Below, one piece after another: positions 3,171-58,340 of a DNA stretch of 64,000 bases. Position 1 is the stretch's first letter, and each line of letters opens with the position of its first letter. Under the pieces are notes generated by a model. The model worked only from the letters and a program-made list of their open reading frames with translations, did no database searches and was not told the DNA's origin. Position numbers and translations under genes: made by a program. The DNA comes from Diphasiastrum complanatum. Its lineage: Eukaryota > Streptophyta > Lycopodiopsida > Lycopodiales > Lycopodiaceae. The stretch spans positions 69,337,444 to 69,401,443 of the forward strand of contig CM055096.1 in NCBI GenBank assembly GCA_029204225.1. The letters run 5' to 3'.

Positions 3171-3171
3171 T

Positions 3172-3189
3172 TGGTATCAGAGCCTGGGC
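3172..3189 (+). other. Primer binding site (initiator-Met tRNA)
   Basis: TGGTATCAGAGCCTGGGC, one base after the 5' LTR end, is complementary to the 3' end of plant initiator-Met tRNA. It fixes the LTR boundary and the + orientation. Confidence 0.9.
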
Positions 3190-26708: not shown

Positions 26709-28463
26709 GAGGCGGCTCGGTAGGTACTGACTACCCTGCTACACACGGTAGCGAGCCTGCTCACGCCCGCTACCTAGTCCGTAATCGACATTCGCAAAGA
26801 GTGTTCATTGTTAAGAGCAAAAGTGCTACACAATGTAAAGAGCTCTTACTAAAAGTAGATGATGTGTGGGTCAACCATCCATCAATTATGTCTCATATTG
26901 GATAGGAGGAAGGGTGATACCACCGCCTGTAGTAGGCGTTGCCGCTACAACAACGGTGGCGTTGGCAAGCTTCCCCAGGGAAGGCATACTACATTCTATG
27001 CACGATATATCACTATTATTCCCTTTCCCTTTTTATTTTTATTCTTGTAGCGCTTTAAGTTAAGGCGGATAATTTGGACAATACACTCGACGTGGACAAC
27101 GTAGAATGGCCCTTGCTGGGCTGGGCTGGGCTGGGCTGGGGATGGGCTGGGCTGGGCTGAGAAGACCAAGTGAATAACTTGGAAAGCTCCGGAATATCTA
27201 TATCCATGTACCTCCATGAGTTTTTCTACGCAGCGCAGCGGCAGCAGGAGAGCGGGCACTGCGTACGGTGGATGGCAGCTTTTCTCTAGCTTCATGATGA
27301 TGATGGTGATGAAGGAGAAGATGAAGATGATGGACGCCTCTTCAATCTTGATTTGGTTAGGAGTAATTAGATATTATAAGGAATGGCGATGATATTATAT
27401 TGTTGCGGAGTGGGGCGGTTGCAGCAAAGAAAGAGTTGATGCCCTCCCTCCGTTTTTTGCCTGTAGTAGAGATCCATGTGGGGCCCCTTCCAATGGGGAT
27501 CAAGTACTTCCCTCCCGTCTTTCTTTCTTCTTCCATTTCTGCTCATGAGCTGTCTTGTTTCTACTGCATCAACGCTGCATTCTTGTTGGGTAGCAGCTAA
27601 GAAGCAGGAAAACAGAGAATCAAGCTGTGGATTAGTGTAGTGGTGGTATGGGGGATGTTTTTGTGGTTGTATTAATAATAAGTTAAGGTCTTCCTATGGA
27701 GGATCTGAGTAGGAACTTCAATGCTGGCCTGTGGATTTTTATATCGTCAATTTGGAGCAGTGAACCTTGCACTTGTGATTTATATGATCTCTATGCTACA
27801 AGTCATCTTTGCGCCTGCGGCTGGCTTAGCTTAGAATCTCGCGTTTGACTTTTATTTCTTTTTCCGTGGTTTTGTTTTAATCCTCCATGTGGCGTTCCTT
27901 CCTTCCTCACAGCCTTGCAGGGAGCTAAATCCTAGTTTGTTTGCAAATCTCGTCAGCAACATCATTTGGAGCAAGGTGGTGCTACCGTCTTACCTTGAAG
28001 CACAACAACAATTGAGAGCTGTAGAAGAGCTCGGGCCCTTATGACCATTTCTTTGGAACACGGCTCTTCGAGATCTTTCCACCGCAAGCTGCCGTTTGAA
28101 TATGCAGGCCTTCATATTTTCGGAGAATTGTGCGAGTAATAAGGCGATCGATTGTAATCGTTTTGCGAGTAGGGGTTGCTGCTGTCCTCGCCTCCACAAA
28201 CTTCGCCGTTCCAAGGAAGTTTGTTTCTTTGCAAGAGCTGGATGCTTGAGTGCCATGAAGGAGCATGAAGGGTGGCAGGCTCTCAGAACTGCAAGAAGAG
28301 GGTGAACAAATAGTTATAGACTGCTACTTATTACAACAGCTAAGTTGGGTGATGAAAGGCTTGCGGCGGCGAGCTTGCTCATTAGAACATTCATATCAGC
28401 CAGTTTATGTACGCTGTTAACTTAGATACTGCTCAATACTTCTAGTTTGATTCTTCCAACGGC
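26709..28463 (+). promoter_or_regulatory. Upstream region of the LysM receptor kinase gene
   Basis: No other gene was recognised here, so promoter and 5' UTR of the gene at 28464 should lie in this interval. It contains a (GGGCT)n pentanucleotide array (about 27116-27160) and a short GAT-rich tract (27292-27336). No TATA box or leader intron could be assigned with confidence. An in-frame TAG at 28443 lies 21 bp before the start codon. Confidence 0.35.
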
Positions 28464-34400: not shown

Positions 34401-37321
34401 AAGAAAAGCTATGAAATGAGCTTGATTGTAAAAGGTCCAAGCACTTCTGTGCCCGCAAACAATTTTTGGCAAACACAAATACTGGACAAGATGTTGCACA
34501 ATTCTTGAAGCTCAAGTGAGACTGACAGCTGCCAAGAAAAGCAGTGACTACTTTTAAAAGCATCTAACAAGCGCCATCAAGCCTGATGGCTGCCTGTAAC
34601 TAGGTTGACATGGATGATAATGGAACCCTGTGGAAAAACTAAGCTGTTGACTGTATGCTGCTGGACTCAGGTTGTCAAACATAAGATATAGAATATAAGA
34701 GCTGGGCTCAACTGTCGAGAAGTGCCTTTCCAATCATAACTTGAAGCTCTCTTTGAAGTATTCTAGAATTTCAATTTCTGGTCTAGCTTGAAACATTTCC
34801 AGGACGTCTTTTGTGCCACTGACCTACTGTATATGTGTCTTTTCTCTGAGATTTATGTATGATGGTGCCTCCACTGTCTTTAGTGCTTGTTTTACTTGGA
34901 AGGTATCCGTGGAATTTCAGATTCTCTTTTGTTGATTTTTATTTGTTTGAATTTAGTTTGAAATTCTAATAGGAGAAGGTACCAGGTAAAAACATAGTGA
35001 ATCTACAGAAGGATCTGAAGAATTTCACAGAAGTACCGCCTTTTGAGATAGACAAAAGAAAAGGTGACAAAAGAAAAGGTGACATTATTTTGCTGTTACA
35101 CTAAATTGGAACACAAATAGACACAGAACTGAGCTAAAATTGAGAAAGATAAAATTGCTGGGCTGGAACATGGCTGTTCCTCAGCAGTCGATCATCTGCC
35201 TGCATGACAGTTTTGTGGATGAAATGAAAGAGGTTCAGTCAGATGTTGTAACTGCTGCCATTCTGAATCAATTATCTCTGGTTGCAGAAGGTGGCAGTGA
35301 AGAGAATGAATTTGCAAGCTACAAAGGAGTTCTTGTCTGAACTTAAGGTGCTTACACATGTACACCATACCAACCTGGTAAGATCCTCCTTTTTGGTTTT
35401 GATAGATCAGGAAGATGATGTTGCTCAGCTTCAATGTACCTAGAGGAAGAGAAGCAAAAGCAGGAACTTAGTGTTTGCTCCTGTTATGAATCATCTTTCC
35501 CTGTTAAGGGGCATGTTAACATGAAAAAATAGCATATGTATAAGAAAAGTTTTAAGAAATGATGGAAGATAATTGGGAGCCTTAAGATATTTCCAGTTAT
35601 GAAATATTTTTCCTTTTGAAGAGGGCACACCAACATGAAAAAAAAGTGCACGTGCGTGCACACGATGTCGAAAACCAAAGTTTGAAGACATAAATGGAAG
35701 ATTATTTGGAGCCTTCAGAAGTTCATTTTTTAATGTCTTTTTGAGCAGAGGTAATTCTAGGAGATCTTGGTGATTTTTGTTCTGAAATGATGACCAACAA
35801 ATATTCAAGATAATGAGCATCTTTTTCTAAAACAAACATTCTCAAGGATTTTGCTGAAAAGATCCCTTGTCAATGCATCTTCAATACTGCTATACCTGTC
35901 CATTTATTCAGCTTTAGTTGTTCTGATTTAAACTTTAGTGCATTCAGTTTCACATTTTTATTTACCTGATATTTCGTTTGAGAGACTCATACATGTTGGA
36001 AGAAATTCAGACATTGTGCAATGTAGTGAAAGGTTGTTGTGTCTTTCGACAACCCCAGTTATGAGGGGGTCAGTTTGTCTATGTTTTAGACTAAACAACC
36101 CCAGTTCTGACAGCCTTTTGTTTGCAAAGAAACTCTGCTCAGATTTTCGTCTAAGGATTGGGGGGATAATGCTATCACATTCACTTGTAACACGATTGAA
36201 GTTTTGTGCTTTTTGGATCCAGTGATGCATTTCAGATTCTGGATCTGCTGTTATAAAAGTATTTTGTGTGATCTTACTCATCTGCCTAACTATCTGCTGG
36301 AATCTATCACTATGCCCATGCTGCTAAGGATGGGTCACTTTTGTTCTTCTCTTGTGTTCTGATATGTGTTGGGCAAATGTGTAAAAGACATCTTTTTTGA
36401 AATAGTTCCCCTGATAGATTTGAAACTCTCTACGTTGATTGTGTGATTGTTGGTACTCACAGGTACAGCTGATTGGTTACTGCACAGTCGAGTCACTTTT
36501 TCTGATTTATGAATTCGTAGAGAATGGAACCTTGGCTCAGCACCTACATGGATCGGGTATTTCATATCCAAGTTTGAGTTTTCTCAGTAATTTCAAAACT
36601 TCAAAAAGTACTTGCATTGATTCTTTTGAAATCATATAATCGGTCCCCTAGGTGTACACTATGTTATATTTCTTCTTTTCAACAAATGACTGAGGCTACA
36701 TTTATGCAGGAAGACCACCTTTGAGCTGGCCTTCTCGAGTACAAATAGCACTCGATGCTGCAAGGGGTCTCGAATACATTCATGAGCATACCAAGCCCAC
36801 ATACATTCATCGTGACGTCAAGTCTAGCAATATCCTCATTGATAAGCACTTTCATGCAAAGGTTGGTGCTCATTTCTGGTTCCTATTGCAGCATCATCAT
36901 GTATGCGTGTCAATGTAATGATGAGATTGATGACTTACCTACAAAAGACCCTTATTTTTTTGCAGGTTGCTGATTTTGGATTAACAAAGCTAACAGAATC
37001 TGGTATGGGAAGTGTTTCAATGACTCAGCCAACACGTCTTGTGGGAACGTTTGGTTACATGTCTCCAGAGTACGTAATGCTAAAGTTTGTCCTTTCTCAC
37101 TGTGATAGCTCGGCCTGTCACCGTGTGTATAATGCAACAATGATCTGCATAGTGTCACATGTTGGTTGAAAATTCCAGAAGGAATCACGTACGACTGTAG
37201 AAGCAAACCTGCAAGCTTAGAATATCACTACCAATATGATTGCATCTTTTTTAGGTGCCTGGATCACAGGAGGGCTGCTGTGACCGCAGCAATATATGTC
37301 CAATTAAGTAAAATTGGAGAA

Positions 37322-37378
<57 letters not shown>

Positions 37379-37662
37379 GTCAGCAATGATAGGCAAAATG
37401 CGTTCTGGAGCTTCTCATTGGTCCATGTTTGCCCTAAAATGTATTTGAAGGGCAGTTGAAGTGGGTTTGAAAATCACACGTTGATTTTGGAGAGAGAACA
37501 CACGTTTTTAAAAACTTCTAGAAAGATAATTTTCTAGAAAGAGAGGCAAGGTATAAAGATCGCAAGGATGCAATGCAAGCGAGAGAAAGAGAGGGGCGCT
37601 GAGCAAGAGGAAGAGTTTTTTTTGAAAATTGAGGGTTAGGGTTTAGGAATGAAAAATAGCAA

Positions 37663-37713
<51 letters not shown>

Positions 37714-38545
37714 GTATTTCTGATAAACACTAAGCAGCCTATTTCTTCATTGAGGTATCAGACAATAGGTTTTGATATTGTGATTTCATGTAATATTAGG
37801 TATGCTCGCTTTGGAGATGTCTCCCCGAAAGTTGATGTATATTCATTTGGCGTTGTCCTATTTGAAATAATTTCTGCCAAAGAGGCTATCGTGCGAACTG
37901 CAAACACCTCATCCATAGAGTCGAGCTCTAGGGAGGAGCACAAAGGACTTGTAACTCTGGTATGTTTCTTGTCAATAAATTCTACTCATCTCTCTTGAAA
38001 GGTATTGTTTTGGCTAATATCTTTTTCATTTTAATATCTCTCCGTCAGTTTGAATGCCTGGTTATAAGGTTCACATACCTTTTGAAAGTACTCCGTACTG
38101 AGCTGCATGTTTCTTCACGTTTTTCTACTGAAAATGTTGCCCTTTTCAAATGATCTCAATGCACGAGCAGTTTGAATCCGTGTTAAAAGATCGTGATGGC
38201 AAAGAAAAAGTACAAAAGCTAGTGGATCCTGCTCTAAATAGCTATCCACTAGATTCGGCTTGGAAGGTACATCAATCAGAGTTGCATATTGCTTTGTATA
38301 CTGATTGGTGATTAGGTTGCTATTACATACTTCTCATTTTTGCTCAAAGGGAAACCAAACATTATCACCTTATGGACTTGCAGATGGCCCAATTAGCAGG
38401 TGCATGTACACAAGAAAACCCAGAATTAAGGCCCAGTATGCGAACAGCTGTTGTTGCATTGATGACTCTATCTTCTTCAACACAAGATTGGGAAATTAAC
38501 GTTGCTGGAGATAATGGACTAGGGGGCCTAGTTTCTGGAAGATAG
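28464..38545 (+). CDS. LysM receptor-like kinase, CERK1/LYK1 type (chitin/Myc-factor co-receptor family)
   Basis: Exons: 28464-29115, 29510-29543, 29858-30060, 33577-33782, 35288-35377, 36463-36556, 36710-36861, 36966-37069, 37800-37959, 38171-38266, 38384-38545. All introns are GT/AG and phases fit, giving 650 residues (Arabidopsis CERK1 has 617). Signal peptide 1-33; LysM ectodomain about 34-217 with Cys34, Cys40 and the CNC and CSC motifs; transmembrane helix about 251-277; [16 protein letters not shown] at 328; kinase with G-loop [10 protein letters not shown] (350), Lys370, Glu383, HRDVKSSN (460), DFG (480), SPE (510-512), then YAR at 513-515; end VSGR. The family is a plasma-membrane kinase that senses chitin or lipo-chitooligosaccharides with LysM partners. 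ATG 28464 is the first after an in-frame TAG. The exon 3 start is least certain: 29858 is the only nearby acceptor that keeps frame, and it adds a Lys-rich stretch before the membrane helix. Confidence 0.93.
31110..32610 (+). pseudogene. LINE (non-LTR retrotransposon) relic inside intron 3
   Basis: A + frame near 31110-31310 reads [20 protein letters not shown], then [11 protein letters not shown] and [11 protein letters not shown]. Further on [18 protein letters not shown] appears near 31600. This is the pattern of an exonuclease-endonuclease-phosphatase domain of LINE ORF2 (ACYFPP...SPYxDL...SDHxxL). Downstream (32016-32608) a roughly 295-bp block is duplicated in tandem and carries words such as [17 protein letters not shown] and ENAEHMF, possibly from the region after RT. 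No RT core was recognised. Many stops; inactive. It is in sense orientation to the host gene. Confidence 0.55.
32016..32608. repeat. Tandem duplication (about 295 bp) within the LINE relic
   Basis: Copies at about 32016-32305 and 32311-32608 share GGCTGTAGGAGCA, TGCCCAACAAAG-like words, GATAGAGATAGGAAGGTGGA and GGACTTGACATA in order. They differ by scattered substitutions and small indels, so the duplication is not recent. Confidence 0.75.
33783..36462. other. Introns 4 and 5 of the LysM kinase gene
   Basis: Flank the 90-bp exon 5 (35288-35377). Intron 5 contains a degenerate direct repeat (about 35507-35590 and 35619-35722; shared AACATGAAAAAA and TGGAAGAT.ATT.GGAGCCTT). No other genes recognised. 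Confidence 0.6.
37325..37374. repeat. (GA)25 microsatellite in intron 8
   Basis: 50 bp of uninterrupted GA inside the intron between the SPE-coding and YAR-coding exons of the LysM kinase. Confidence 0.98.
37667..37710. repeat. (GA)22 microsatellite in intron 8
   Basis: 44 bp of uninterrupted GA about 90 bp before the exon 9 acceptor (37799). A telomere-like GGGTTAGGGTTTAGG lies just upstream at about 37632-37646. Confidence 0.98.
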
Positions 38546-38846
38546 GCGGTCACCCTTTTGCATACGAGCTACCTCAATTTTTTATTCCTCATTTTTTGTT
38601 TATGGTTTCATATAAGGCCATCTTCTTGTACTGATCAAGGACTTTCCAAATTTCAAGATTTAAATCTGATGTGCTTCTATATTTATCTGAAAAGTCTTCA
38701 GTTGGATAAATTTTATCATGCCAATGTTTTGTGGAACAAGACTTCAAACGTCCACTAAGTGGGCTGTGGTTTATGGTTTGCAACAATGATTACAGGTCAT
38801 TGTGTGTAGCTTGTTTGTAGATGAACTAGCTTAAGAACAGAGCCTG

Positions 38847-38852
38847 AATAAA
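38847..38852 (+). terminator. Candidate polyadenylation signal
   Basis: AATAAA 302 bp after the stop codon of the LysM kinase gene, in a T-rich 3' flank. Plant signals are loose, so this is only a candidate. Confidence 0.4.
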
Positions 38853-39530
38853 GAAAATCTATGCAGTTGGAGCTCAAGTGACAGAAAGAGAAGTAAAGCC
38901 TGGTATGCTATTTGGGTGTGCTCTGTATTTTATTGTTTGCATGTTTCTTTCAGAGATAATGCCCTATCAAGTATGGAACATGCTCAATATTTGGCATCGA
39001 TATAGCTCTCTCCTTACTAATGATCTGATGTCACCTAAAAGACATTCTATAAAAACACACAGGTTTTTGAATGTTTGAGCTAAACTTGTGAGAAGTCGAA
39101 AATTCAATAAGGTTGTTAAAAGGTCATGTTTACCAGTATTTTACGTGTGGTACTGTTTGATAGCATTGCATCATGATTTCATTTTGGAAAGTTTTCATGA
39201 CTATCTCAACTCAGAACATTATCACTACATTTGAACTTCTATTGCAACTTGCAGTATAATAAATTTAAACAAATTACTGTTAAAATTTAAACAAGGTTCC
39301 CATTAAGCCATTAAGTCACTGATTTGCACAGCATTGAAGGGTTCAGGCTGTTGTGTACAGGGATGGCACTTAAATGTTTCTCAGATAATTCATAAGTTGG
39401 TGGTCTTGTTTCTTGATAAACTTGCCTTGCTTCGGCAAGTTGAAACCGAACAAGACATAAGCATCGCATCTCCATGCGCACCAGTTATTGGATGGTGTGT
39501 AAAGTCGACACCAGCAATAATTATTTGGCA
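38853..39530. other. Downstream flank of the LysM kinase gene, nothing recognised
   Basis: AT-rich spacer with short frames and no recognised domain. Confidence 0.4.
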
Positions 39531-39548
39531 TCTATATGTGAGAGATGT

Positions 39549-39626
39549 CCCGGAACACATTCCGGGCCTAGTTGTCCGTTCCAGAACGGAACACGTTCTG
39601 GAACCCGTTCCAGTTCCGGAACTTGG
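39549..39626. repeat. Cluster of GGAAC/GTTCC palindromes
   Basis: CCCGGAACACATTCCGGG at 39549-39566 is an imperfect palindrome. It is followed by alternating GTTCC and GGAAC words (for example CCGTTCCAGAACGG) up to 39626. A second cluster lies at 40171-40221 with arms CAGTACGTT/AACGTACTG and CCGGAACGGG. These fold into hairpins; function unknown. Confidence 0.6.
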
Positions 39627-39651
39627 CCAAATAAATTACGTAGTTTTCAAC

Positions 39652-39838
39652 AAAGCAATGGAGATTAACGCAATCAAGATATAGAGCGTGCTCAAGCAGC
39701 GATTCTAGCTCGGATATATATCACTTGGTTTTTAACAAAGCAATCGAGATCAAGGAACGGAATCAAGATATATAGTGTGGCTCAGACAAAAATTCTAGCT
39801 CGGATATATATAATGTGGCAGATAGCGATTCTAGGATC
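39652..39838. repeat. Tandem repeat of about 90 bp, two copies
   Basis: Each copy runs from ACAAAGCAAT.GAGAT through AATCAAGATATA to ATTCTAGCTCGGATATATA. A further AAGAAATCGAGATTA near 40010 resembles the start of a third. Confidence 0.65.
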
Positions 39839-40264
39839 AAGTTGAGCAGCAGTCAGAGAAGATATCAGAGACGAACAGAGATGGAGGACGTGACAGTAAC
39901 AAATATGGTGGTGGTGGTCCTAGGGAAACTGTAGAGATCGAGCTGGTCCTGATGGTCGTCCCAGTTGCTGGCCGTGGAGGTCGCTCATTAAATAGCTGTA
40001 ATTTTCAACAAAGAAATCGAGATTACCTTGAAAAAGGAATCTGCTTGAACTGTATGTTTCTAGCGTTTTTGATCTCTAGCATCCCTCAATATATTATCGC
40101 GAAGGAAAATCATGGCCAGGGGTGGCACTTTGATACCTGGTTTTTTGGTTTAAAAAAAAACGTTCAGACCCAGTACGTTCCGAAACGTACTGTACGGAAC
40201 ACGTAGTACATGGCCGGAACGGGTTTCTAACTTCCCGGGCACCACCGTGTCCCGAACGGGAGTG

Positions 40265-40265
<1 letters not shown>

Positions 40266-40297
<32 letters not shown>
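40266..40297. repeat. (TG)n(TA)n microsatellite
   Basis: TG repeats pass directly into TA repeats, ending ATATATATAC. Confidence 0.95.
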
Positions 40298-40298
40298 C

Positions 40299-40463
40299 TA
40301 GTTGTGAGTGCCCGTCGTTGACGGGCAATGGCGGCCGATCTAGTGACGGCCGATGATTTGGAAAATGGCTGAATGAGGGAAAAGGTTCGATCGCCTTCTT
40401 CTAGTTGTAAGTGTCCGTCGTTGACGGAGGCCGATCTAGGTGGCGGCCGATGATTTGGAAGAT
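40299..40463. repeat. Direct repeat of about 65 bp, two copies 100 bp apart
   Basis: Both copies read TAGTTGT(G/A)AGTG(C/T)CCGTCGTTGACGG, then GGCCGATCTAG, then CGGCCGATGATTTGGAA. The GC content is well above the local average. Confidence 0.75.
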
Positions 40464-40539
40464 ACATATGTATATATGACCTGTATGATAAACACAAAAA
40501 AGTCTCAGTCAATTACAAAGTTTATAGATGAAATTGATA

Positions 40540-40623
40540 AACACAACTCTCTCGAAATTCCGCGAAAAATACTCTCGAAAATTTCCCGAAAACTTCTCTC
40601 TCGAAAATTTTGCCAAAAATTCC

Positions 40624-40685
<62 letters not shown>

Positions 40686-41028
40686 AATTTCACGAAAAAT
40701 ACTCGAAAATTTTGTGAAAGATTTTGAGAGTTAAAATTTTTGAGAGTACTTTTCGCGGAATTTTCGATAGAGAGAAATTTTTGCGAAAAATTCCAACTCT
40801 CGAGAAAAGAGAGTATTTTTCGCAAAAATTTCGACAGAGAATTTCGCTAAAAATTCCAACTCGCGAAAAATTCTCTCTAAACTTTTGCTAAAAATGCACT
40901 AAAAAATTTTGCGAAATTCTCTCTCTCTCTCTCTCTCTCAAAATTCTAACTCTCAAAAATCGGCGCAAAACATTCTCTCGCGAAATTTGAGAGAGAGAAG
41001 AGAGGATTTTTCGCGAAATTTCAAGAGA

Positions 41029-41099
<71 letters not shown>

Positions 41100-41288
41100 T
41101 TGCGAAAAATTCTATCCTTGTCGAAAATTTCGCAAAAAATTCTCTCTCAAAAATTTCGAGAGAGAGAGCGTTAAAATTTTCGAGAGTATTTTTCGCAAAA
41201 TTTTCGACAGAAACAATTTCGCGAAAAATTCCAAAATTCAATAGAAATTTTTGCAAAAAAATCTCTCGAAATTTTCGCGAAAAATTCC

Positions 41289-41337
<49 letters not shown>

Positions 41338-41446
41338 TCTCTCTCAATTTTGCGAAAAATACACTCGAAAATTTCACAAAAAATTTCAATTCTTGAAAAT
41401 TTCGCAAAAAATTTCAACTTTCTCGAAATTTTTTGCAAAAAATTCC

Positions 41447-41506
<60 letters not shown>

Positions 41507-41543
41507 GGCGAAAAATTCTCTCGCAAAATTTTCGAGAGAGCGA

Positions 41544-41595
<52 letters not shown>

Positions 41596-41670
41596 TTTCT
41601 ATCTCAAAAAATTTCGAGAGAGAGAGAGATAGAGTTAAAATTTTCGAGAGATGTGTTAAAAAATTCAAGG
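40540..41670. repeat. Composite satellite of CT/GA arrays and CGCGAAA-type palindromes
   Basis: Six long dinucleotide arrays (CT at 40626-40682, 40918-40939, 41031-41094, 41291-41345, 41449-41501; GA at 41549-41592) are spaced by 100-250 bp. The spacers are built almost entirely from TTTCGCGAAA, AAATTTTCG and GCGAAAAATTC words and short CTCTC/GAGAG runs. Because CT and GA arrays coexist on one strand and the spacers are self-complementary, large hairpins are possible. Open frames made of Ser-Leu or Glu-Arg dipeptides here are artefacts of the arrays. A sparser continuation with the same words runs through 41820-42000. Confidence 0.85.
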
Positions 41671-41689
41671 CCTAATGTGTTCAAAATAC

Positions 41690-42640
41690 TTCTAAACAAC
41701 CGTCTTAATCCCGATTGTGACGCCAAAACAATGATTTAAAATTTATTAACTAAGACAGTGAATAAAGAGACTGGTAGCATTAAGAAAGTCAAAGCACAGT
41801 GTCGCGACAGTTTTGAGTGTCATAAAAATTCTATTCCTCTCTTTCGAGTTGCGAAAAATTCTCTCTTCCGTGAAAAATTCTCTTTTGCGAAAAATACTCT
41901 CTCGGACTCGAGTCTCGAGAGAGTTTTTCGCGAAAATACCTCAAAGATTTTCTGGATGGAGAGGCCTCAAAAATTTCGCGAAAATTGGTGAATCCTTCTC
42001 GAAATTTGCCGATCATGAATTCGATGTCAAACAAAATTAACTACAACCATTTTGAAGATTTAATGTACAATCCAATCTACAATCTCATGGCTGTCTGCGC
42101 ATAGAGATGCCAAGTGTTTCATCATTGGACACAACGCAGGAGCAACGATTGTGCACCAGACAATGCTTAACGCAGCAATAGATGAGTTTGGGAGAAACAG
42201 ACTTCTTATCTTTTCCCATTGTTGCCGAAGCCTTGAAGCGTTTATGAAGTATTCAGAAATCGGATCTTACCTTAATGGCGAAATTGAAGCCTAGACATAA
42301 GTTGCCTAAATACAGCATCAGCCCAGAAACTATCCGCCAGATGCAAATTCACACCTTGACTTGGAAAATGATTGCTAGGCAGAAAATCTCTTTCTGCCAT
42401 AGTTGTCATGAACTTCTTCACGCACTACTCATCCCATTTTTGGCTATTCAAAATTTTGAAAACATTAACTAAAACCTTCTTGATCAATAAATAGAATTTG
42501 TCTAGACGCAATATATCAATGCCACCCCATTCCTTGCCCCGGACAGAAATCCTTCAAAAATCTGAAGGGAAAGCTTCACATCTAAACGAAGCAAAAGGGA
42601 GGCAAGCCTCTCAATGAGGTCAGCCTGCAGGACTAATTTT
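41690..42640. other. No recognised gene
   Basis: Short frames on both strands (for example 42502-42700 minus and 42275-42472 plus) show no known domain. The left part carries the CGCGAAA-type words of the neighbouring satellite. Nothing else recognised. Confidence 0.35.
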
Positions 42641-42699
42641 TCGAGACTCGACTCGAATTTTTTGAGGCTCAATTTTTTCGAGTCTCGAAAAATTCGCAT

Positions 42700-42830
<131 letters not shown>

Positions 42831-43115
42831 GTGTCGCATATCTCACTTAGAGAGAGAGATGACAGCAAAAGTACGAGCCAGAGAGAGGTCGAGAGGGCGA
42901 CTTCGGGCATATCTCGCACATCTCATGTCTCAAACAGCTCGCACATCTCACATATCTGGCATATTTCACACATACCGCATATCTCGCTTGGAAGTGGGTG
43001 TTCATGTGAGGCAAGGTAGATACAACATAAGAGCAAAAAATAAAGATTTCAAAGTATAGAATACATATAGTGGAACCTTAAATTTGTTAGCTGTATGTTG
43101 AGACCATGAAACATA

Positions 43116-43132
43116 GTGTGTGTGTGTGTGTG
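43116..43132. repeat. (GT)8 microsatellite
   Basis: Short GT run 28 bp before the CT array at 43161. Confidence 0.9.
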
Positions 43133-43156
43133 CCTATCATTGCGATCTGGGTGCAA

Positions 43157-45230
<2,074 letters not shown>

Positions 45231-45315
45231 TGCCATATTGCAAAAAAATAAAAAGAGAGAGCATTCTTGACCAGCTTTTTGAGCAAATTCCCAGAACCTG
45301 TTCCAAAACATGGAG

Positions 45316-45429
<114 letters not shown>

Positions 45430-45813
45430 GGATGCTCCTTCGTTCAATTTTACGCTGCTTCGCTACCAAACAAGTGGACAACGTTCAGTTTTACCCTGCT
45501 TCGCTACCAAACAAGTGGAGAACAACAAACGTACCGCTTATCCAAAAATACAAGGTCCAATTTACACTCTATACTTGCATAAGAAAAGTTTTTTCTTATC
45601 TAAGTGGTTTTTCCACTTAAAATTCAAAAACACTTTAAAAGACTTTTAAATTTAAATCCTAACTGGAGGGAAATCAATTTTCCTCCCCACTCATACCTTC
45701 CAGGAAACCACACTGCATAACACTACAAAACCATGCAGTTTCGAGGTTTTTTCTTTACAGCACCGTGAAGAAGTTTGTTTTTCTCTTACATGCTGAAAGT
45801 GCGCCCTACCAGT

Positions 45814-46088: not shown

Positions 46089-49019
46089 ATAAAATTACAT
46101 TCTTCTATTTCTAATAGAGTACGAAACCTCTCAAATTTACATCCACCTAATGACTTAGTAAAAATATCTGCCATTTGATCTTCGAATTTACAAAAAACAA
46201 GATCAATGGCTCCATCAAGAATTTTCTCTCGAACAAAATGGTAGTGTATTTCGATGTGCTTGGTTCAGCATGTAAAACTGAATTTTGGTAGGGTGAATGC
46301 AACTTTGATTATCGCAAGATATAGTAGTCGCATCCACCGGTGGTTGACCTAAATCCACAAGCAATCTTTGTAACCATACCGCTTCTTGTGTAGCATTGCT
46401 GAGTGCTCAATATTCAGCTTCCGTCGATGATAAGGCTACTGTAGGTTGCTTTTTGCTGCTCCATGAAATTGCAGCTATACCATAACTGAATGTATGACCA
46501 TTGGCCCGATCTTCTGTCATCAATATTACCTGCCCAATCGGCATCTGTATAACCTACCAACATTGGAGTTTCAGACTGATCGTACTTCAAACCAAAATTC
46601 AATGTCTCTCGAATGTATCTGAGAATACGTCTAGCAGACTTCCAGTGTGCTTGACTAGGATCTTGCATAAATTGACTAGCAACACCAACAACATAAGAAA
46701 TATCAGGTCATGTGTGTGTCAAATAAATCAAACTACCCACTAGCTATCTATATAAATAAGAATCCACTTTCTCAGATTCATCATATGCAGTAAGCTTCAT
46801 GTTGACATCCATAGGTGTACTCAAAGGCTTACAATCCTGCATATTGAACTTATAAAGTAAATCTCGTGCATATTTGCTTTGTGTAAGAAAGACCATGTCT
46901 TCCTTTTGCCATACTTCAATGCCAAGACAATAGTGCATCAATCCTACATCAGTCATGTCAAAAGCATTGGAAAGATTCGATTTGATTTCATCAATTAACT
47001 TCTCATTACTTCCTGTAATAATCAAATCATCCACGTACAAGACAATGAATACTATATCTGAATCTTGTCTTAAAATGTAAAGATTAGGATCAGCATCACT
47101 CTTTACCATTCCTCGTTCCTTGAAGTGTTCATCAATGCAAGAGTACCATGCCCGTGGGGCTTGTTTCAATCCATAAATGGCTTTGTTGAGCTTACAAACA
47201 AGATGCTCTCTCCCTGGCTCATCAAATCCTTGAGGTTGTACTAAGTACACCTCTTCATCCAGCACTCCATTAAAAAAAACAGATTTTACATCCATTTGCT
47301 GGATCTTCCAACCATAGAAAGCAGAAATAGCAATAATAAAATAGTCAGAATCTTAGCTACGGGTGCGAAGGTTTCCTCAAAATCACCTTCTTGTTGCTCA
47401 AATCCTCTTGCAACCAACCGTGCTTTGTACTTGTTGAGTTGCCCATCTGCTCCATATTTTATCTTATAAATCCATTTGCAAGTGATAGGCTTCTTACCAT
47501 CAGGTAGCTCAACCAAATTCCACGTCCTCTTTTTCGATATGGCTTCCATTTCTGTTTCCATAGTTGCACGCCACTCCTTGTGCTCCTTTGCTTCATCAAA
47601 AGTTTTTGGTTCTTAAGCCTTGAGCACAGAGCCCATCAGGGCTAGATTCATCTCTAATCTTGTAGGGGGTTTTTGATTTCTACTTGATTCTCTAAGCTCT
47701 CCCTGCTCACTTGATTCAGGAGTATCTCTCTTATTGACATCACTTGTTACTGACAAGTACCACTTAGGTACTCTCCTAGGAGTCTCATTATTAACTTTGT
47801 CTTTTTCCATTGGCTCTTCATATCGACACCAACTTCTTTCTTCACTTGCACTTTAGCTTTATCATCAAAGGGATCAATTGTCAATTTTATCTGGTCATTT
47901 TGACCAATCTCATCAAAAGTAGCATCTTTGGAAATCATGATCTTTTGTGCATCTGTGTCATACATCCTATATGCCTTGGCTCTTTCATCATATCCAAGGA
48001 AAATACACTTAACAACTTTTGCATCCAGCTTTTGCATTTTTCATCAGGCACATAAGCGTAAGCATCACAACCAAATACTCGTAAATGAGAAACATTAGGT
48101 TTCTTTCCATTAAAGGCTTCGTAAGGTGTCTTACCCTCCACGGACTTAGTAGGACACCGATTCAAGATATGAGTAGCTGTGTTGCATGCTTCTGCCCAGA
48201 AAGTATCTGGCAAACCCTTGCTCTTAAGCATTGCCCTAGCCATTTCCACAATGGATCTGTTTTCCCATTCTGCAACTCCTTTTGGTTGTGGTGAATAGGG
48301 TGTAGTAGTTTGTCTCTTGATCCCCTGATAATTGCAAAAATTTATAAACTCTGTTGAGAAATACTCACCGCCACCATCTATCTGAGGGTCTTAATATAAC
48401 AACCTGTTTGTTTTTCAACTAGAGCCTTGAACTCTCTAAACTTGGCAAAAGCATCACATTTCTTTATGAAATAAATCCAGATATGTCTACTATAGTCATC
48501 AAAAAATGTGATGAAATGGTAACAACCACTAATGGACCTAGTTTGTATTGGTCCACACAGATCACTATGAACAAGATCAAGAATGCCATTGGCTCTTCTT
48601 GCTCCATCTTTGGGAAATCTCTCTCTATGTTGTTTTCCCAAAATGCAATTTTTCCTTCAAAAGAGATATCAAGCAATCTAGCAACTAGATTACCTCTTTT
48701 AAGGATTTGCAAGCTTTAAGCACTAATATGACCAAACCTTTGATGCCAAAGGTCACTTCGACTATCAACAGTGCTTACCATAGCTTGAGTAAAAGTTCTC
48801 GCATTCAATTTGTAGAGTCGATTCTTGTTGACTCTAGAGAGCTCTTGTAGCAATCATTTTGTAGTGATTCTTGATGTCCTTGACGAGACATTTGTCATTG
48901 TCAAACTCAGCCTTGAGTTGTTGATCAGTCATCATCCCAACAGATAGTAGATGGTTAGCTAAGCCAAGTACATATTGCACATTGCTCATCTGCTTTATCT
49001 TCCCGCTAGCTAACTTCAC
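46076..49019 (-). pseudogene. Ty1/Copia pol, 5'-truncated
   Basis: Minus strand, 5' to 3'. Gag-pre-integrase side: NVQYVLGLANHLLSVG (48980). Integrase: GILDLVHSDLCGPI, ITFFDDYSRHIWIYF (48560-48480), FWAEACNTATHILNR (48190), HLRVFGCDAYAYVP (48080). RT: KPITCKWIYKIK, YKARLVARGFEQQEGDFEET (47440-47400), NKAIYGLKQAPRAWY (47180), YVDDLIITG (47030), LMHYCLGIE (46930). RNase H: VGYTDADWAGNID (46540) and QPTVALSSTEAEY (46430-46390), ending MADIFTKSLGG near 46160. Several frameshifts and stops separate the frames, but the RT catalytic YVDD and the LTR/PPT end are intact. Everything upstream of the gag-pre-integrase region (gag, protease, 5' LTR) is missing. Confidence 0.92.
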
Positions 49020-49146: not shown

Positions 49147-49159
49147 GCTTGATAATTTT

Positions 49160-50885
49160 TTGGATATAATCAGTTTTGATGCTGATGATCTTTTATCTGG
49201 TGTTGACGATGTACATAATGATAAGTTTTATTCAGGGAAAGATTGCTTGAAAACGGTTGTGGAGAAAATGTGCAACAAAGAAGATGATCTACCTTCTGAG
49301 GAGGAGTTTTTCAGAATCCAAAGTCAACTTGGTTGTCCACAACCAACTATCTATTCACCAACAATATTGACATCAAAAGGTGGACATAATATTGATGGAG
49401 AGATAGTAATCAGGGAAGACAAATCCAAATGCGTAAGTTCTTGTGTCTTATCATCATGTACTAGTAGATTCGTTATGTCCGATTATATACTGGAGCTTAC
49501 TTTTTTTTTTATCATTTCAGGAAATAATTTTCCTTGATGATTTCGCAATTCGTCGAGAAGGGCAGAGATCTTCTGCTGGAGAATTTTCAAGAGATCATGC
49601 ACTGGGGCACTATCTAAAGTTCTCAAGAATAATGAGATAAGTGTTGCCCATTCAAAGTTTCATCAACATGGTGAGACTATGATTATGGCAATCAAGGCAC
49701 TGTCTCATTTTCTTGGAGGACATAATTTCAATAAGGTGCATAAAATAATTTTTGTAAGAAAACCATTGCGGTTAAAATTTCAGGATATGGACCAGTGAAT
49801 TCCATGCTCATATCATCTCATTTTGCGCTGCTTACGTTGATCTGAGTAAGCATGAAAACTATGAGCTATTATGGGCCCAAAGAGGGCCCTATAAGAAATG
49901 TCATGTATGAGAGAGAAAAATAACTATAACTTCTTTACGCATCTGCCCGCACTACTTTCCATGTAAATGTATGCACCTTAGTTTAGTCACATCAAACTTC
50001 ACTGGTGCTTAACCATAGTTTAAATATAATTTTCAAAATGCTGAAATAGTCCTTCCCAATAGTTGGGAACACTTAAAAATTTGAATTAAGAGTGACATTT
50101 CTAAAACAAAGCCTATGCCATCTCTATCTACGGGGTAAAAAAACAAGTGTTTAGCACCATCTCTATCTCCAGCAGAGTCGTTGACGCCATCTCCAGCTTT
50201 GTTATTGTCATTGTGTTGTTTGTTACTATACTACTATGATGGCAAAGCTTTATCATTTTCATGTGGATCTGTCACCAGAATATGCTCCGCTCAGGACAAG
50301 AAATTCAAAGCAACCCAAATTGTCAACTTCTGATATGGTCCGATACAAGGAGGAAAAGCTAAAGCATGTAGATTTATGGTCATCAAGAACATTGTATCCT
50401 ATTGATCCATGTTCATTGCAACATCCATATTTTCATTCGGTGAGTCAGTTAATAATCTATATGTGTCATGGTAAAAATGGCCTTTTGGGTTGCTGTGAGA
50501 ATTTGATGCTCTATGGGAATGCACATTCAATGCAAAGAATACATTATTTGGAAGAGGAATCAAGGAAAATATCAAAGGAGTGCGAAGAAAAATCTACAAA
50601 GTTGAAAACTTGTTTGGATGAAAATGAGATGCTCAAGAAGGAGATCCAAAGGTTTTTTGCATCATTATACAACTAGTAATGATGAGACAAAAACTACATT
50701 TCAATCCATGCGTTTCTCATATTTGTCTCTTGTTAAAGATATGGATGTGCTCAACAGAAAGGTCCGAAGCAACAAGAGGAAAAGACTAGTAAACAAGGAT
50801 ATATGTGATCTATCATCCAAAGGAAGGATACTCAAATGTTACTTGCCACCATCCCACAACACAAAATCACATGAGTTAGTATAGT
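49160..50885 (+). pseudogene. Decayed spliced plant gene of unknown function
   Basis: Exon-like frame 49160-49431 reads LPSEEEFFRIQSQLGCPQPT then TILTSKGGHNIDGEIVIRED. It ends with a good donor (C|GTAAGT). The acceptor TTTCAG at 49515-49520 joins it in phase to FLDDFAIRREGQRSSAGEFS and RDHALGHYLKFSRIM. A one- or two-base shift then leads to KNNEISVAHSKFHQHGETMI and a donor near 49735. Further downstream 50236-50676 reads FHVDLSPEYAPLRTRNSKQP, then a probable coiled coil (EEESRKISKECEEKSTKLKT), shifting frame at about 50676. I do not recognise the family. Splice-compatible joins and non-repetitive composition argue for a former cellular gene rather than a transposon. Confidence 0.45.
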
Positions 50886-51659
50886 GGGGAAGATGGTGTC
50901 ATAGTTGAGCATCAGTTGTTATCCATGTCCAAACAAGGTTCACTACTTTACTAGCTCAAATACAATTGCATAGCATACATCCAGTCTTCCTAGCCATAGC
51001 TTACTTTACTAGCAATACGTTCTGCCCTAGGAACTTAACATATCATGGGTAGATGGCATATTGATTAGTACAAGGGAAAAATAAATGTATGAAATTCAGA
51101 TTAACATTTAACATACGTAAGAAGCTATTACTCATTTCAAAACATACAAAGAGTTGTGGTCCAAGCCTTAGCATTGGGTACCAGGGTAGATCCGTGCCAG
51201 AAGAGAAAAGGAAATGGCACAAAGGAAGGCGCCACTCTCAAACTTGTATCACTTTTCTGCTTCCTACTCTTCCTCTTCGCCATGATGGCTCATGCATAGT
51301 AGCGCCCATCTACAATCAACCATTCAGCATTAACACACGGAAACGGTAAGCTATTTCACCCACTATTTGCAAATGGCAAGCAAGAGCGGCATTTCATAAA
51401 AGTACACAACATGGCGGGACTAGCACAAAAAATAGCTGTATACTGCAACTTTTCCAATGGTTTTACAGAAGAATCCAAATTCGTCATAATATAAAATCAA
51501 CGGATCATAAAAATTTTCAAAAAACATGCAAATTTATACAAGCCAGTAGGCAATAGACACACAATAAAATTTTGTATATTAGATAAAAATATTTACAAAG
51601 TACAATTCAACAATATCTACTCTGCTTCCGATACTTTCTCCAATGAAAGTTGCAACTTA
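50886..51659. other. No recognised gene
   Basis: Spacer between the decayed gene and a minus-strand Copia element; a frame at 51089-51349 has no known domain. Confidence 0.4.
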
Positions 51660-53210
51660 GAATCATGCAGCAATTTTCTCTTTGAATTGTTTGAACTTAA
51701 TGAAAGTCTCTGATTTTTGCTTAATGAAGTAAACAACTGATCTTCTGGAGAATTCGTCAATAAAGGTAATGAAATACTTTGCATCTAGCAATGATGGAGT
51801 TTGCATAGGTCCACATATATCTGAATGAACAACATCTATCAGACCTTTTGTTGCATGCCTATGACTTGATCTAAAAGGGATCCTAGTCTGATTTCCAAGA
51901 ATGCAGTTATGGAAGATAGGGTGATCGACTTTGCCAGAAGGATAGTCGAGATCAAGTGCTAGAGATTGTCTGGACATGTGAAAAAAAGATGCATAATTCA
52001 AGTGTCATAAGCGATGATGCCATAGTAATGCTTTATTGACAAGAACAGAGATTTTCAAGACTTAATTAGAATCAGAATAACAATGTGCCAATCTATATAA
52101 ATATCTATGCCTCTTGCCGAGTGCAAGGATCTTATTATTCCTATCGATAATTCTGCATTGATCGGACTCAAACTCTACCTTATGACCTAAATCTATAATT
52201 TTACTTACTGATAACAGATTTGTAGAGAGTTTAGGAACATATAAGACTGTTGGCAGTAGTTTGAATTGATCATGCTGGAACCTTAATCTTACAGTACCTT
52301 CACCTTCGATAGTGTGAGCGCTATCGTCACCAAGATGGACATACTTCTTTGTGTTGTAAGGCATATATGAATGGAGAATCTCAAAATGATTGGTCATATG
52401 TTGAGTAGCTCCAAAATTTAGAAATCACGAGTCATCTGAATTCGTGTTTTCTTTGATCATAAAAGCGCCTTCGTCCATCTGTATTTGCTTGTTGATCAGG
52501 TTGCTTAGCTGCATTCTTCGCTTTGAGAATTTGGCAATCCTGATAGTTCTTGACTTTGAGTTTGTTTCTGATTTCGATGAAGATACTTGGAGATTTTCTG
52601 CTTCTGTCGTTTTGAGCCCTTGTTGACATATAGAGCATGAGACAAAGAGGTAGACAAAGTTTCTTGACTTCTTCGATTATCTTCTTGCAACAACATAGTG
52701 ATAACTCTGGTAAGAGTTAAATGTCGTGATGATCATCACCCAATTCTCATATGTAGAGGGCAGGCTTGAAAGCAATGTCATAATTGCATCTTGATCGTCT
52801 ATGACTAATCCGACAGTGGCCATATGTTGCAAGAGATTCTTAACCTGGTTAATATGATTATGATTCGACATCTTGAGTGTGAAGAATTTTCTTCGAAGAT
52901 GTAACTTGGTAGTTATGTCTCTCACATCATATAGTGAGCTCAGGATGTCACAAACTTCTTTCAAAGTTTTGGCTTCAGCTACGTGGCCAATATGTGTATC
53001 TGATATATTGAGGATAATAAGCGCGAAAGCTTTACCGTCCTTTGATTTTCACTTTGAGTCGTCTGTGTCATCTTCAGGCTTCACTTTAATACCTGTAACA
53101 ACATCCCACAACTCGTCGGTGATTAGCAAGGCCTTCATCTTTTTCCATAAATGATAATTGGATCCATTTAGCTTGTCTGTGATAAGACCGACTTTAATTT
53201 GAGAATCCAT
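51660..53210 (-). pseudogene. Ty1/Copia gag to integrase, 3'-truncated
   Basis: Minus strand from the ATG at 53210: gag with ITDKLNGSNYHLWKKMKALL and VKPEDDTDDSK (one internal stop), EVCDILSSLYDVRD and NQVKNLLQHMATVGLVIDDQ, LLSSLPSTYENW (52770), a degraded zinc-knuckle region near 52540, protease side ATQHMTNHFEILHS (52400), LPTVLYVPKLSTNLLSVSKI (52240), then GLIDVVHSDICGPMQTPSL and YFITFIDEFSRRSVVYFIKQ (51840-51710). It stops abruptly at 51660 within the integrase core. Its LTR and primer site lie to the right (53375-53625). The matching 3' end of this family lies, in + orientation, at about 57161-58340. Confidence 0.88.
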
Positions 53211-55310: not shown

Positions 55311-56396
55311 GCCCGCACAAAGGTTTCTTCTCTAGATATAGCATATTTTCATTGTAATTATAAAACTTATAATGATAATGATATAATGATAATTTTTAAT
55401 GATCTATAGGCCTACTAATCTTAAATTAATTATGCTTATGAGGTATTGGGGCTCCCATGGTACTAGATCATAATCAATGATTGAGGCCTAAATCCGATGA
55501 TAGTGGATTTAGATGATTTGTTGAGTGATAGGCACTTTAGCATACATAGATCTGAGTTCATAGAGAGGAATTTCTACTAGCAAAAATGGAGTTTTATGTA
55601 CTTGATCATGAACAATACACACTGAAAAGCAAAACACATGAGAGTAAGTGGCATGTTGCATCGACCAAGAGATTCCCAATAAGAGGTCGAATGCATCTAT
55701 AAGAATTTTTTTCCCAAATAATATGTGTTACTCTAAAATTCTATCCAAAAAGCCTATAAATTATTATGTAGAAAAACAGCTAATATTATCGTGATCACAA
55801 AGTGATTTCATTATAGACGATTTATAAATAGAGTGTGATCAATCCTACTTTCCAAATATCATTATTTGCCACCACTAGTTCATGCTATTATCAACATCAA
55901 CAGCTTTCAATCTAAACTATTCATAGCTTTTTCTCAATAAAACTATGTGTATTACTATTTCTCTCGCAAAATAAAACCTATTATCACTTCTGTGTATTTT
56001 TTGAAGTCTAAGTGTCTCAAACTAAGGTCTATGCCCTTCTGACCAAGAGTTTCACAGATTTGAAATCATTATGTAACTTGGTGAACATTCTGTCAAGCTT
56101 AGCTTTATAGATATGCTTGTCTAGTGCCACCAAGTCCTGATAATGAATCATGTCTTTATTCTGAGATCTGAATAACGAAGTACTGAGCAGAGACTTAAAT
56201 CTGAGATATACCTCAGAAAATGCCTCCACACTAGGACCCTCAGTAATAGAAGGAAGAACAAAAAAAAAGGAGAAAAAAGAGATTTGAAATACTCCAAACT
56301 ATCAATAATACCAAATTCATGAAAAAAAAAAAAAAAAAAAACAAACTAGAATCAAAATTAGACATTTTAAATAAAAACTACAAATGTAAAATTCCA
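55311..56396. other. AT-rich spacer, no recognised gene
   Basis: Includes a poly(A) run near 56322-56341. A minus-strand 66-codon frame at 56029-56229 has no known domain. Confidence 0.4.
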
Positions 56397-56677
56397 AATA
56401 TTGCTCTCAGGCGCAAACTGCAGATCAGGCAAGAACCTCAAGGCACTATGCACTCGAAAGAGATATTAGAAATTAGAGTATCGGATCCGAGCGCATGAAC
56501 AAAGAGCAGACAAGAAAGGAGATGTAAAGCACACTTGAATGCGATACCAGACGAGGCAGTATCGGTTCCAGGCGCAAGTTAGTCAACGGAGGGTAATCAG
56601 TGCAAATGGCGCGCTTGAAATCGATATCCGGCCAAGAAATCAAAAATTTGCATAAAAATTCGAGCCGAAAATGACCT

Positions 56678-56685
56678 ATTTATAA
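56678..56685 (-). promoter_or_regulatory. Candidate TATA box facing left
   Basis: Minus-strand TATAAATA, 57 bp before the first left-hand ATATCG motif; mirror image of the one at 56952. Confidence 0.4.
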
Positions 56686-56951
56686 TAAAAAAATTCACAC
56701 ATGTGGAGGAGTTACGAAGGAACACGTGTCGATGTATGATTGGTCAGAATTAATACGCAATACAGACAATGATTGATCTGACATCTATCACGTGCGAGAA
56801 TGACACTCGTCGAAAAGGGATTCATCCACATGTCCCAACCCACGTGGACTCATAATGAGGTCATCATTGTCAGTACAGACATTCCATGTGGAACAATCAT
56901 ATGACGACACATGTTTTCGGCCGTCTTTTCACACGTGCAAAAATTTTGTAT

Positions 56952-56959
56952 ATATAAGT
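56952..56959 (+). promoter_or_regulatory. Candidate TATA box facing right
   Basis: TATATAAG on the plus strand, 55 bp before the first right-hand ATATCG motif and 15 bp after a CACGTG box. Confidence 0.4.
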
Positions 56960-57160
56960 CCTCAAAATTTTCATTTTTTGTCGCAGAATTTTCGGTTTTC
57001 GCTCCCAATATCGCTCTCAAGCGCGGCCTCTCACCGTTTAATCGTCCGCCTTCTCACAGTGCGCTCGAGACTGATACCACTGTTAGTCCAATATTGCTTT
57101 CGAGCGTGCATCTCGTTTCTTAAAATATTCTATGTATATCTTGCACTCGAAACCGATATT

Positions 57161-57297
57161 CAGTAAAGAGGTCAGATTGCAGTATTGTCGAACACAAGAT
57201 ATGACAACAAATATTTTTACCAAAGCATTAAGCTTGGATACACACAGAAAGTTCTGTGCAGAACTAAGTTTAAAGGTCAAGGCATTCATGGATTCAA
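57161..57297 (+). pseudogene. C-terminal end of Copia RNase H
   Basis: + strand frame reads EVRLQYCRTQDMTTNIFTKA, then LSLDTHRKFCAEL and a stop just before the polypurine tract. This is the usual HVxxxDxxADIFTKAL end of Copia pol. Everything upstream is replaced by the cassette at 56397-57160. Confidence 0.75.
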
Positions 57298-57308
57298 ATT
57301 AAGGGGGA
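57298..57308 (+). other. Polypurine tract
   Basis: TTAAGGGGGAG immediately before the LTR start TGTTGGATT. Confidence 0.8.
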
Positions 57309-58340
57309 GTGTTGGATTATTCTCCTACTAATCGACTATTCGACATTTTAATCTTCGTCCAACTTTTATCCAAACTTGCAGATTTTTTTTTGTATTTTTA
57401 CACAATCTGCATAATTACTCAAAAACGGCTCACAATGTCGGCATTTTTGGGATTTTTGTCTTTTAAGATTTTCTCTCACTTTGGCTTTTTCGCAAAATGC
57501 CAAATGCCTCAAATGTTAAGAAAATGACTTTGGCGAAGACCTTCGCATCGTTCGCTTGACAATTTACGTTCATTTCTATAGAGTGATAGTTTACGTTCAA
57601 ATCTGCAAACAAACTATTTATGTTCAAATCTACCGACTTGCATTAATTCATCAACAAGTAATTTCTGAGAAGTCCTAACTAGATGGATGCCATCACATCA
57701 CAACCAACTGGATGATGCATTTGGCAACCTAATTGCTTAGTATAAATAGTTATTCATATTCCTATATCTCGAGCATTGAAGCATGAAGATCAATAATCAA
57801 ATATTGAATAGTTAGCGTCCCTCTCTCAAGCAGGCGAGCTTGGACACTTGAGCATTCTAGCTCACTTCTTTAGAGTTGATTAGAGATTGCTATTGTTGCT
57901 TACTGCTTATCAGCATTGCGCTTAATTCAGACTTATATTTAGTCGCTCAGAGATAGCTTAGAGTGCGCGGCTTTGATCCGCAACTTGTTGTATTCATTTA
58001 CATCTGTTTCGTTTTCATACTGAATCAATACTATCTTCTTATTGCGTTCAGGTTCATCTCAAAATGTATGCATTTTTGTAATTTTTCGTGACTGATTATT
58101 TGTCTGATAATTCAATGCTTTCATGTTTGGCTATGTAATCACTGTAGTACTAATGATTTCAAAGTTAGGTACTATAAGATCGGACGTGATTTTTATCACT
58201 ATTGTTTTGTTCGAAATTGATAGGCGTAGTCATGCATAGATAGTTTATTCCTCTACGCACGATAAGTTTTAATTCTTGTCGTTCAAATTTTTTTCATTCG
58301 ATTCTATATGACCTATCTTTGAACACCTCTTTCCAACATA
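57309..58340 (+). repeat. 3' LTR (1032 bp) of a Copia element
   Basis: It starts TGTTGGATTATTCTCCTACT and ends CTCTTTCCAACA, following a polypurine tract. A TATA box (TATAAATA) lies at 57741-57748. Same family as the shortened, inverted LTR at 53387-53625. Confidence 0.87.
57741..57748 (+). promoter_or_regulatory. LTR TATA box
   Basis: TATAAATA near the middle of the 1032-bp LTR, a plausible U3/R promoter. The region is deleted in the sister LTR at 53387-53625. Confidence 0.5.

Follow-up and report, generated by a model that had tools for sequence, protein, structure and literature searches.

The window analysed here is a stretch of 64,000 nucleotides (C5:69337444-69401443) from a 1.74-Gb eukaryotic assembly. 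Toward its right end, a core of G-boxes is framed by two outward-facing TATA boxes and by arrays of an inverted motif. The start of a divergently oriented gene follows on the left; on the right, where the arm of a repeat would be expected, there is a truncated copia fragment. The features are:

56056..56365, minus strand: start of the divergent left gene, with ATG at 56365 (homology to other copies, in-frame ATG in related copies, frame open across copies)
56398..56627, minus strand: left motif array, six motifs as three inverted pairs, within the 5' leader predicted for the leftward transcript (motif scan and position-matrix scan)
56677..56684, minus strand (read 56684-56677): leftward TATA box TATAAATA (sequence, and column majority of 31 copies)
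56700..56937, no strand: G-box core, with four intact CACGTG boxes (56723, 56789, 56841, 56932) and CACATG/CATGTG sites
56949..56957, plus strand: rightward TATA box TATATATAA (sequence, and column majority of 31 copies)
57008..57159, plus strand: right motif array, four motifs as two inverted pairs, within the 5' leader predicted for the rightward transcript (motif scan and position-matrix scan)
57165..57309, plus strand: non-repeat sequence, a truncated copia pol end where the right arm is expected; family homology breaks at 57164
49147..49870, minus strand: displaced, inverted repeat piece that matches an internal part of the left arm (blastn against C2 and C10)
49870..50824, plus strand: left-arm piece just inside the candidate left terminus, holding an ORF at 50236-50676 (homology to other copies)
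51374..51677, plus strand: additional left-arm piece of the repeat (homology to other copies)

The frame at 57165..57309, which ends ...LQYCRTQDMTTNIFTKAL, is what we take to be the end of a copia pol gene; an LTR-like start, TGTTGG, follows at 57310.

Anatomy of the segment

Ten copies of a 17-bp motif make up the array, in strict alternation of strand (starts at 56398+, 56450-, 56478+, 56531-, 56559+, 56611-, 57008+, 57061-, 57091+, and 57143-). Motif starts lie 52-53 bp apart inside a pair and 28-30 bp apart from pair to pair, giving a period of 80-83 bp. The first-pass annotation had described this alternation, pairing distance, and repeat length, and the scan agrees on all three. A chance origin is ruled out by an order-1 Markov control: ten sites in the region score at least 11 of 16, against a mean of 0.69 and a maximum of 4 in 200 such sequences. 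Elsewhere in the window, the position-matrix scan returned a single weak match, at 11206. The count of three units to the left and two to the right is correct for the window. The asymmetry is nevertheless partly damage, because all four other copies scanned carry a further right-hand motif, lost from the window copy, which is cut at 57164. Most other copies compared continue at that point with one more motif.

The four CACGTG boxes and the two outward TATA boxes noted at first sight are indeed present. Plant promoters commonly contain G-boxes. The column majority of 31 copies contains eight CACGTG boxes, against four in the window; by hand, these resolve into three pairs mirrored about the midpoint between the TATA boxes, plus two unpaired boxes. 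From each TATA box to the nearest motif the gap is 49 or 50 bp, edge to edge, rather than the 55-57 bp originally given. In the same column majority, the start codon on each side lies about 310 nt from its TATA box. Assuming a transcription start 30 nt below each TATA box, both leaders would be equally long, about 280 nt, and are predicted to consist largely of motif pairs.

The bilateral symmetry is stronger than first described: positions 56476-57161 align with their own reverse complement at 60.9% identity over 713 positions (E 6e-33). Together with the regularity of the array, this alignment identifies the segment as an old or constrained inverted duplication of a predicted promoter, rather than a set of scattered motifs.

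A dispersed repeat and its candidate termini

A search of the assembly with the DNA query 56390-57170 gave 1551 first-look candidates. All of the best 40 of these, which were scored, match at 85-100% identity; they include the window itself and an identical copy on contig C537. (The latter, C537:11214-11994, matches all 781 query bases at 100%, lies on a small contig, and is likely an unplaced haplotype or an assembly duplicate.) The segment therefore belongs to a dispersed, high-copy repeat. The first-pass annotation had named three signs that would tell against its reading: a lack of other genomic copies, unconserved motif spacing, and alignment of the segment to a known LTR. Instead, copies exist, the spacing is kept, and the LTR at 57310 belongs to a separate, truncated element.

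Thirty-nine loci (38 others and the C537 copy) were compared together with 2-kb flanks, and coverage by other loci was measured on six reference copies. With L009 as reference, 15 to 38 other loci cover each sampled point from -1550 to +2350; with L020, 12 other loci still align at -2000, 2 kb to the left; and with L010, 18 still align at +2650, about 2.6 kb to the right. Coverage of the remaining reference copies falls to 0 before the flank ends, a result of truncation or interruption of the copies themselves. For some of the 39 loci, homology extends roughly 2 kb to either side, and the limits 56397 and 57160, first proposed for the segment, are not repeat borders: in other copies homology continues beyond both.

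The window copy itself is broken and rearranged, as indicated by further fragments of its repeat at 49147-49870 (inverted), 49870-50824, and 51374-51677, and its left-gene frame is shifted at a homopolymer tract. Other elements are nearby: Pfam identifies a copia reverse transcriptase at 46744-47352 (minus strand, E 2.7e-51) and a copia gag at 52677-53048 (minus strand, E 8.1e-24). Farther left are an exon for a LysM-receptor ectodomain at 28446-29174 (plus strand; Pfam LysM E 1.5e-15, NFP/LYK-type models); a stretch at 36846-37169 that looks kinase-like by eye only, with 0 Pfam families; and long (GA)n/(CT)n tracts across 37290-45490, whose complementary arms reach 116 nt and lie kilobases apart. 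The LysM-receptor exon and the plant-type copia elements suggest that the host is a land plant.

Candidate termini emerged from other copies. Those on C2 and C10 have a common abrupt left border at ACCTT-CATTAGAGA, and two further copies share a right border that is nearly the inverted repeat of the left one. Allowing up to 2 mismatches, the left pattern occurs at 1183 sites genome-wide and the right pattern at 540, with 0 and 0 in reversed controls. Flanks of the left-pattern copies differ right up to CATTAG, which rules out the preceding ACCTT of C2 and C10 as part of the terminus. In L012, a right-type end stands to the left of the array, which suggests that both end types are versions of a single repeat. 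What seemed a right end at L023:4439 was rejected as L021's own break, since other copies continue past it. Comparison of the C2 copy with L052 was uninformative for locating ends: the two are about 99% alike over 10 kb, and L052 is most likely a segmental duplicate. (L052 lacks a 379-bp piece spanning part of the left array and the core, as seen against the L023 region.) A TGTTGGAGAAAG... block abuts two repeat copies at different points (L053:4831-5974; L054, reverse complement, 2978-4106) and is probably an LTR.

The search yielded no copy with both termini: the flanks of L014, L025, L054, and L055 were examined for a target duplication, one end was missing each time, and so none was seen. 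One candidate copy is interrupted by a copia fragment, and another is without its left end. Summing distances over several copies gives an estimated element length of about 9 kb.

As for transposon class, members of the CACTA (En/Spm) superfamily have termini that begin with CACTA or CACTG and a 3-bp target duplication. Eight left ends listed here, two duplicate pairs among them, begin CATTAG by construction of the search pattern; CATTA is one change from CACTA. The copies are broken, and the frames submitted to Pfam gave no transposase domain, no hAT dimerisation or DUF659 domain, and no MULE transposase or VANC-type protein.

Flanking genes and the age of the copies

Both predicted transcripts lead into frames that appear to have been open in the amplified ancestor, a conclusion supported by stop counts across copies. 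On the left, over 33 copies, the gene frame has 24 stops in 5889 codons (other frames, 195-827), and the next frame 12 in 3399 (others, 153-367). Pieces of the left gene submitted to Pfam found no match. Farther left, frames on the opposite strand include a coiled-coil-like stretch and another stretch that resembles transposase-like proteins; Pfam returned nothing usable for these frames.

On the right, the frame in other copies has a clear H3 fold (Pfam Histone PF00125, E 1.6e-25), and against the PDB it matches H3.1 (E 2.3e-21) and CENP-A (E 1.3e-20). The fold places the predicted protein in the histone H3 family, these scores not separating a canonical from a centromeric origin. As a query on the same genome, the protein gave 7694 first-look candidates, of which 150 were scored, all with E<=1.1e-96; these include the query copy and its 99% duplicate. 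In the same 33 copies, stops in the H3 frame number 56 in 5894 codons; each of the five alternative frames has 88-454. Stops or frameshifts interrupt most of the H3 copies at the loci compared; a few, L043 and L017 among them, read through the full 216-residue query or nearly so. The frame of L054 extends to 397 codons, about 250 of them past the fold. Of 25 pattern matches to possible viral relatives of the protein, 0 were confirmed.

The canonical H3 tail is near-invariant, with K4, K9, and K27. The right-hand protein departs from it: all 32 readable copies have K4, all 31 readable at position 9 have alanine there, and within residues 1-30 no lysine other than K4 reaches a majority (8 of 32 copies have one at position 30). 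This pattern reflects the amplified master and is not a demonstration of selection. A Pfam Histone search of the genome, with 150 of 6325 first-look candidates scored, placed 13 loci at 163.7-165 bits; below a gap, the next stands at 109.5, followed by many loci at 95-110 and three short ones at 83-84. The top 13 are taken, from scores alone, to be canonical H3 genes, the Pfam model covering all core histones. A separate histone-fold locus, L065, is known from its upstream part (C156:48100-48950); it has Q-rich and P-rich coding sequence before the fold and an unrelated leader, and the motif scan of this part found no match. The genome may hold several kinds of histone-fold repeats.

How old are these copies, and are they constrained? 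In the array region, mean pairwise K2P is 0.158 (528 pairs, 33 copies) and the transversion difference is 0.039; transitions dominate among the differences, as expected for methylated repeats. In a 31-copy alignment (four of the 39 loci dropped before aligning, five near-duplicates before counting, the window included), motif columns are conserved at 0.920 and the rest at 0.919, no excess. Shared variants in the H3 frame likewise have no codon-position bias (60, 48, and 49 at positions 1-3). Given these two results, selection is not demonstrable within the burst, and the sampled copies resemble the descendants, mostly dead, of a single burst. One open master would be enough to leave open frames among its descendants, even if the protein had no function.

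A predicted two-way promoter and its possible roles

In the four copies scanned, all position-matrix hits of the motif at the cut-off fall inside the central array (L054, 11; L053, 4; C10, 10; C2, 10); the scanned stretches of C2 and C10 include left ends, and that of L054 a right end, so the candidate termini in these copies, kilobases from the array, are without the motif. A genome-wide search for the pattern TCRAGCGC-N32..40-GCGCTYGA, which represents the inverted pair, gave 536 sites, and its control gave 1. Pair lengths of 48-56 bp were allowed; among the 50 of 536 sites listed, they are 52 bp (33 sites), 51 bp (15), 50 bp (1), and 53 bp (1). The genome-wide search first suggested for the motif pair thus finds its spacing kept, at 51-52 bp in 48 of 50.

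Loops behave differently from the motifs that bound them. When ten loops were compared with no shuffled control, six matched all others at 11-17 of 34-36 letters, and four were mutually alike (19-32); some of the differences arise because loops from different units of one array were included. On this comparison, motif and spacing are kept where the loop is not. Some common descent of the loops is still visible: similarity among the five master loops is a little above that of their shuffled counterparts (13.5 versus 12.2; 8 of 500 shuffles reach this value).

Direct observation establishes the copy number, the continuation of the repeat on both sides, the H3 homology, the confinement of the motif (in the copies scanned), and its fixed spacing. 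From these we regard it as probable that the segment is a bidirectional promoter with twin 5' leaders, at the center of a high-copy, transposon-like repeat that carries a divergent histone H3 on the right and a second gene on the left. The G-box core and its two outward TATA boxes would drive both genes, with G-box factors as putative activators. Rightward transcription would produce the divergent H3, in a frame running well past the fold, and leftward transcription from the same core would produce the other gene. Each leader of about 280 nt would carry two to three inverted pairs of the 17-bp motif at fixed spacing. These pairs would be binding sites for an element- or host-made protein that regulates or un-silences both genes, in the manner of VANC sites in VANDAL elements. 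The repeat itself would move as a DNA transposon bounded by the CATTAGAGA repeats.

The nearest competitor overlaps this reading in all but function: the H3 may be a passive passenger of a DNA transposon, and the array an ordinary family promoter with sites for host factors. We consider this possible rather than probable. The G-boxes are what an ordinary plant promoter might contain, and the copies in hand are decaying, without a codon-position signal. There is also a precedent in a fungus, Pseudocercospora fijiensis, where a hAT element is described as having captured an H3 and multiplied it into hundreds of copies, almost all of them now inactive (PMC6710886). Against it, the protein has strongly diverged from H3, yet its frame was apparently open over the whole fold in the ancestor, and the 13 top histone loci stand apart from all others listed (at most 109.5 bits, among 150 scored of 6325). 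Moreover, the motif and its spacing persist despite differing loops, which a passive promoter need not do.

Do the inverted pairs act instead as RNA, forming leader stem-loops that yield small RNAs or control translation? This alternative concerns the array only and leaves the two-way promoter as described. Each TATA box does have an array downstream of it, within the leader predicted on that side; outward-read loops are pyrimidine-rich (0.63-0.81, five loops); and the stems appear in predicted folds. The arms of one unit, however, match no better than those of different units: arm-to-arm co-variation shows no excess (observed identity reached by 26 of 120 permutations), and pairs with G-U allowed are not enriched (48 of 120), both from five units and with low power. 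Leader folds are only slightly better than shuffles (z -1.33, 17 of 200 at least as good; z -1.73, 13 of 200), and an Rfam scan of the window gave zero matches at gathering threshold. Because the arms of a unit do not co-vary, the data weakly favor DNA-binding sites over RNA hairpins, and an RNA role seems unlikely. Of the divergent promoter with hairpin arrays first proposed, then, the anatomy stands (inverted-motif arrays at the predicted transcript starts, leading into ancestral open frames), whereas the hairpins find no backing in arm co-variation. The pairs are better viewed as candidate DNA sites at which protein may bind as a pair, about five helical turns apart.

A more ambitious proposal gives the element a chromatin program of its own, combining a K4-keeping H3 variant with arrays that recruit an element-coded factor to its own two-way promoter. 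The variant would have K4, no K9, and no majority lysine where K27 would lie (tail alignment being uncertain here). Nucleosomes with this H3 would offer no site for the main repressive methyl marks, and the arrays in both leaders would recruit a factor that places or protects such chromatin. As an account of the whole we hold this to be quite doubtful.

A foldback or MITE-like transposon with subterminal transposase sites, the other original proposal, fits the inverted symmetry and high copy number and is otherwise extremely improbable: homology extends far past the array both ways, the array is flanked by frames open in the ancestor, and the candidate termini are kilobases off and, in the copies scanned, motif-free. 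(Foldback elements have long, modular terminal inverted repeats that reach the element ends, and here the array is internal; a foldback bounded by the outer motifs is ruled out by the continuing homology.)

The nearest working analogue of the arrays is VANDAL21 of Arabidopsis, in which the element-coded VANC21 is reported to bind arrays dense in its motif, with loss of DNA methylation (PMC5735166). Both systems have dense arrays of short motifs in the non-coding parts of one family, beside genes. As described there, VANC21 motifs are 9 bp long, in one orientation, and in variable tandem repeats (PMC5735166), whereas those described here are 17 bp, alternating, and fixed in spacing. Nothing resembling the VANC protein was recognized here.

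That a transposon can carry H3 is already known from fungi (PMC6710886). The Pseudocercospora fijiensis hAT element noted above is given there as about 9.5 kb long, decayed mainly by transitions, with an 8-bp target duplication for the fungal element (PMC6710886). The present repeat resembles these Dothideomycete hAT-H3 elements in being multicopy, in its candidate terminal inverted repeats, and in carrying H3 coding sequence (PMC6710886). It differs in its apparently plant host, in its reduced H3 tail, and in a frame that continues after the fold; in its predicted central bidirectional promoter with inverted-motif arrays; in candidate ends that begin CATTAGAGA; and in the lack of a hAT domain in the frames tested. 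Copies here are mostly decayed, whereas H3-carrying copies in Pyrenophora tritici-repentis are described in the same text as potentially active (PMC6710886). Helentrons of Culex also contain histone sequence inside a transposable element; these are described as broken H4 and H15 fragments in eight copies of a rolling-circle element with other ends (PMC4067079). A search of titles and abstract beginnings in the open-licence literature, outside which most subscription literature lies, found no plant transposon carrying H3. Not found described are the host, the H3 tail in which K4 is the sole majority lysine of residues 1-30, and the motif-lined promoter.

The question touched by these results is whether mobile DNA can bring along chromatin proteins of its own. 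Here is an apparently plant genome with thousands of first-look H3-like candidates behind a symmetric, predicted two-way promoter, along which inverted motifs stand at even spacing. Should any of the copies be expressed, one could ask directly whether mobile elements evade silencing with a histone that they themselves encode.
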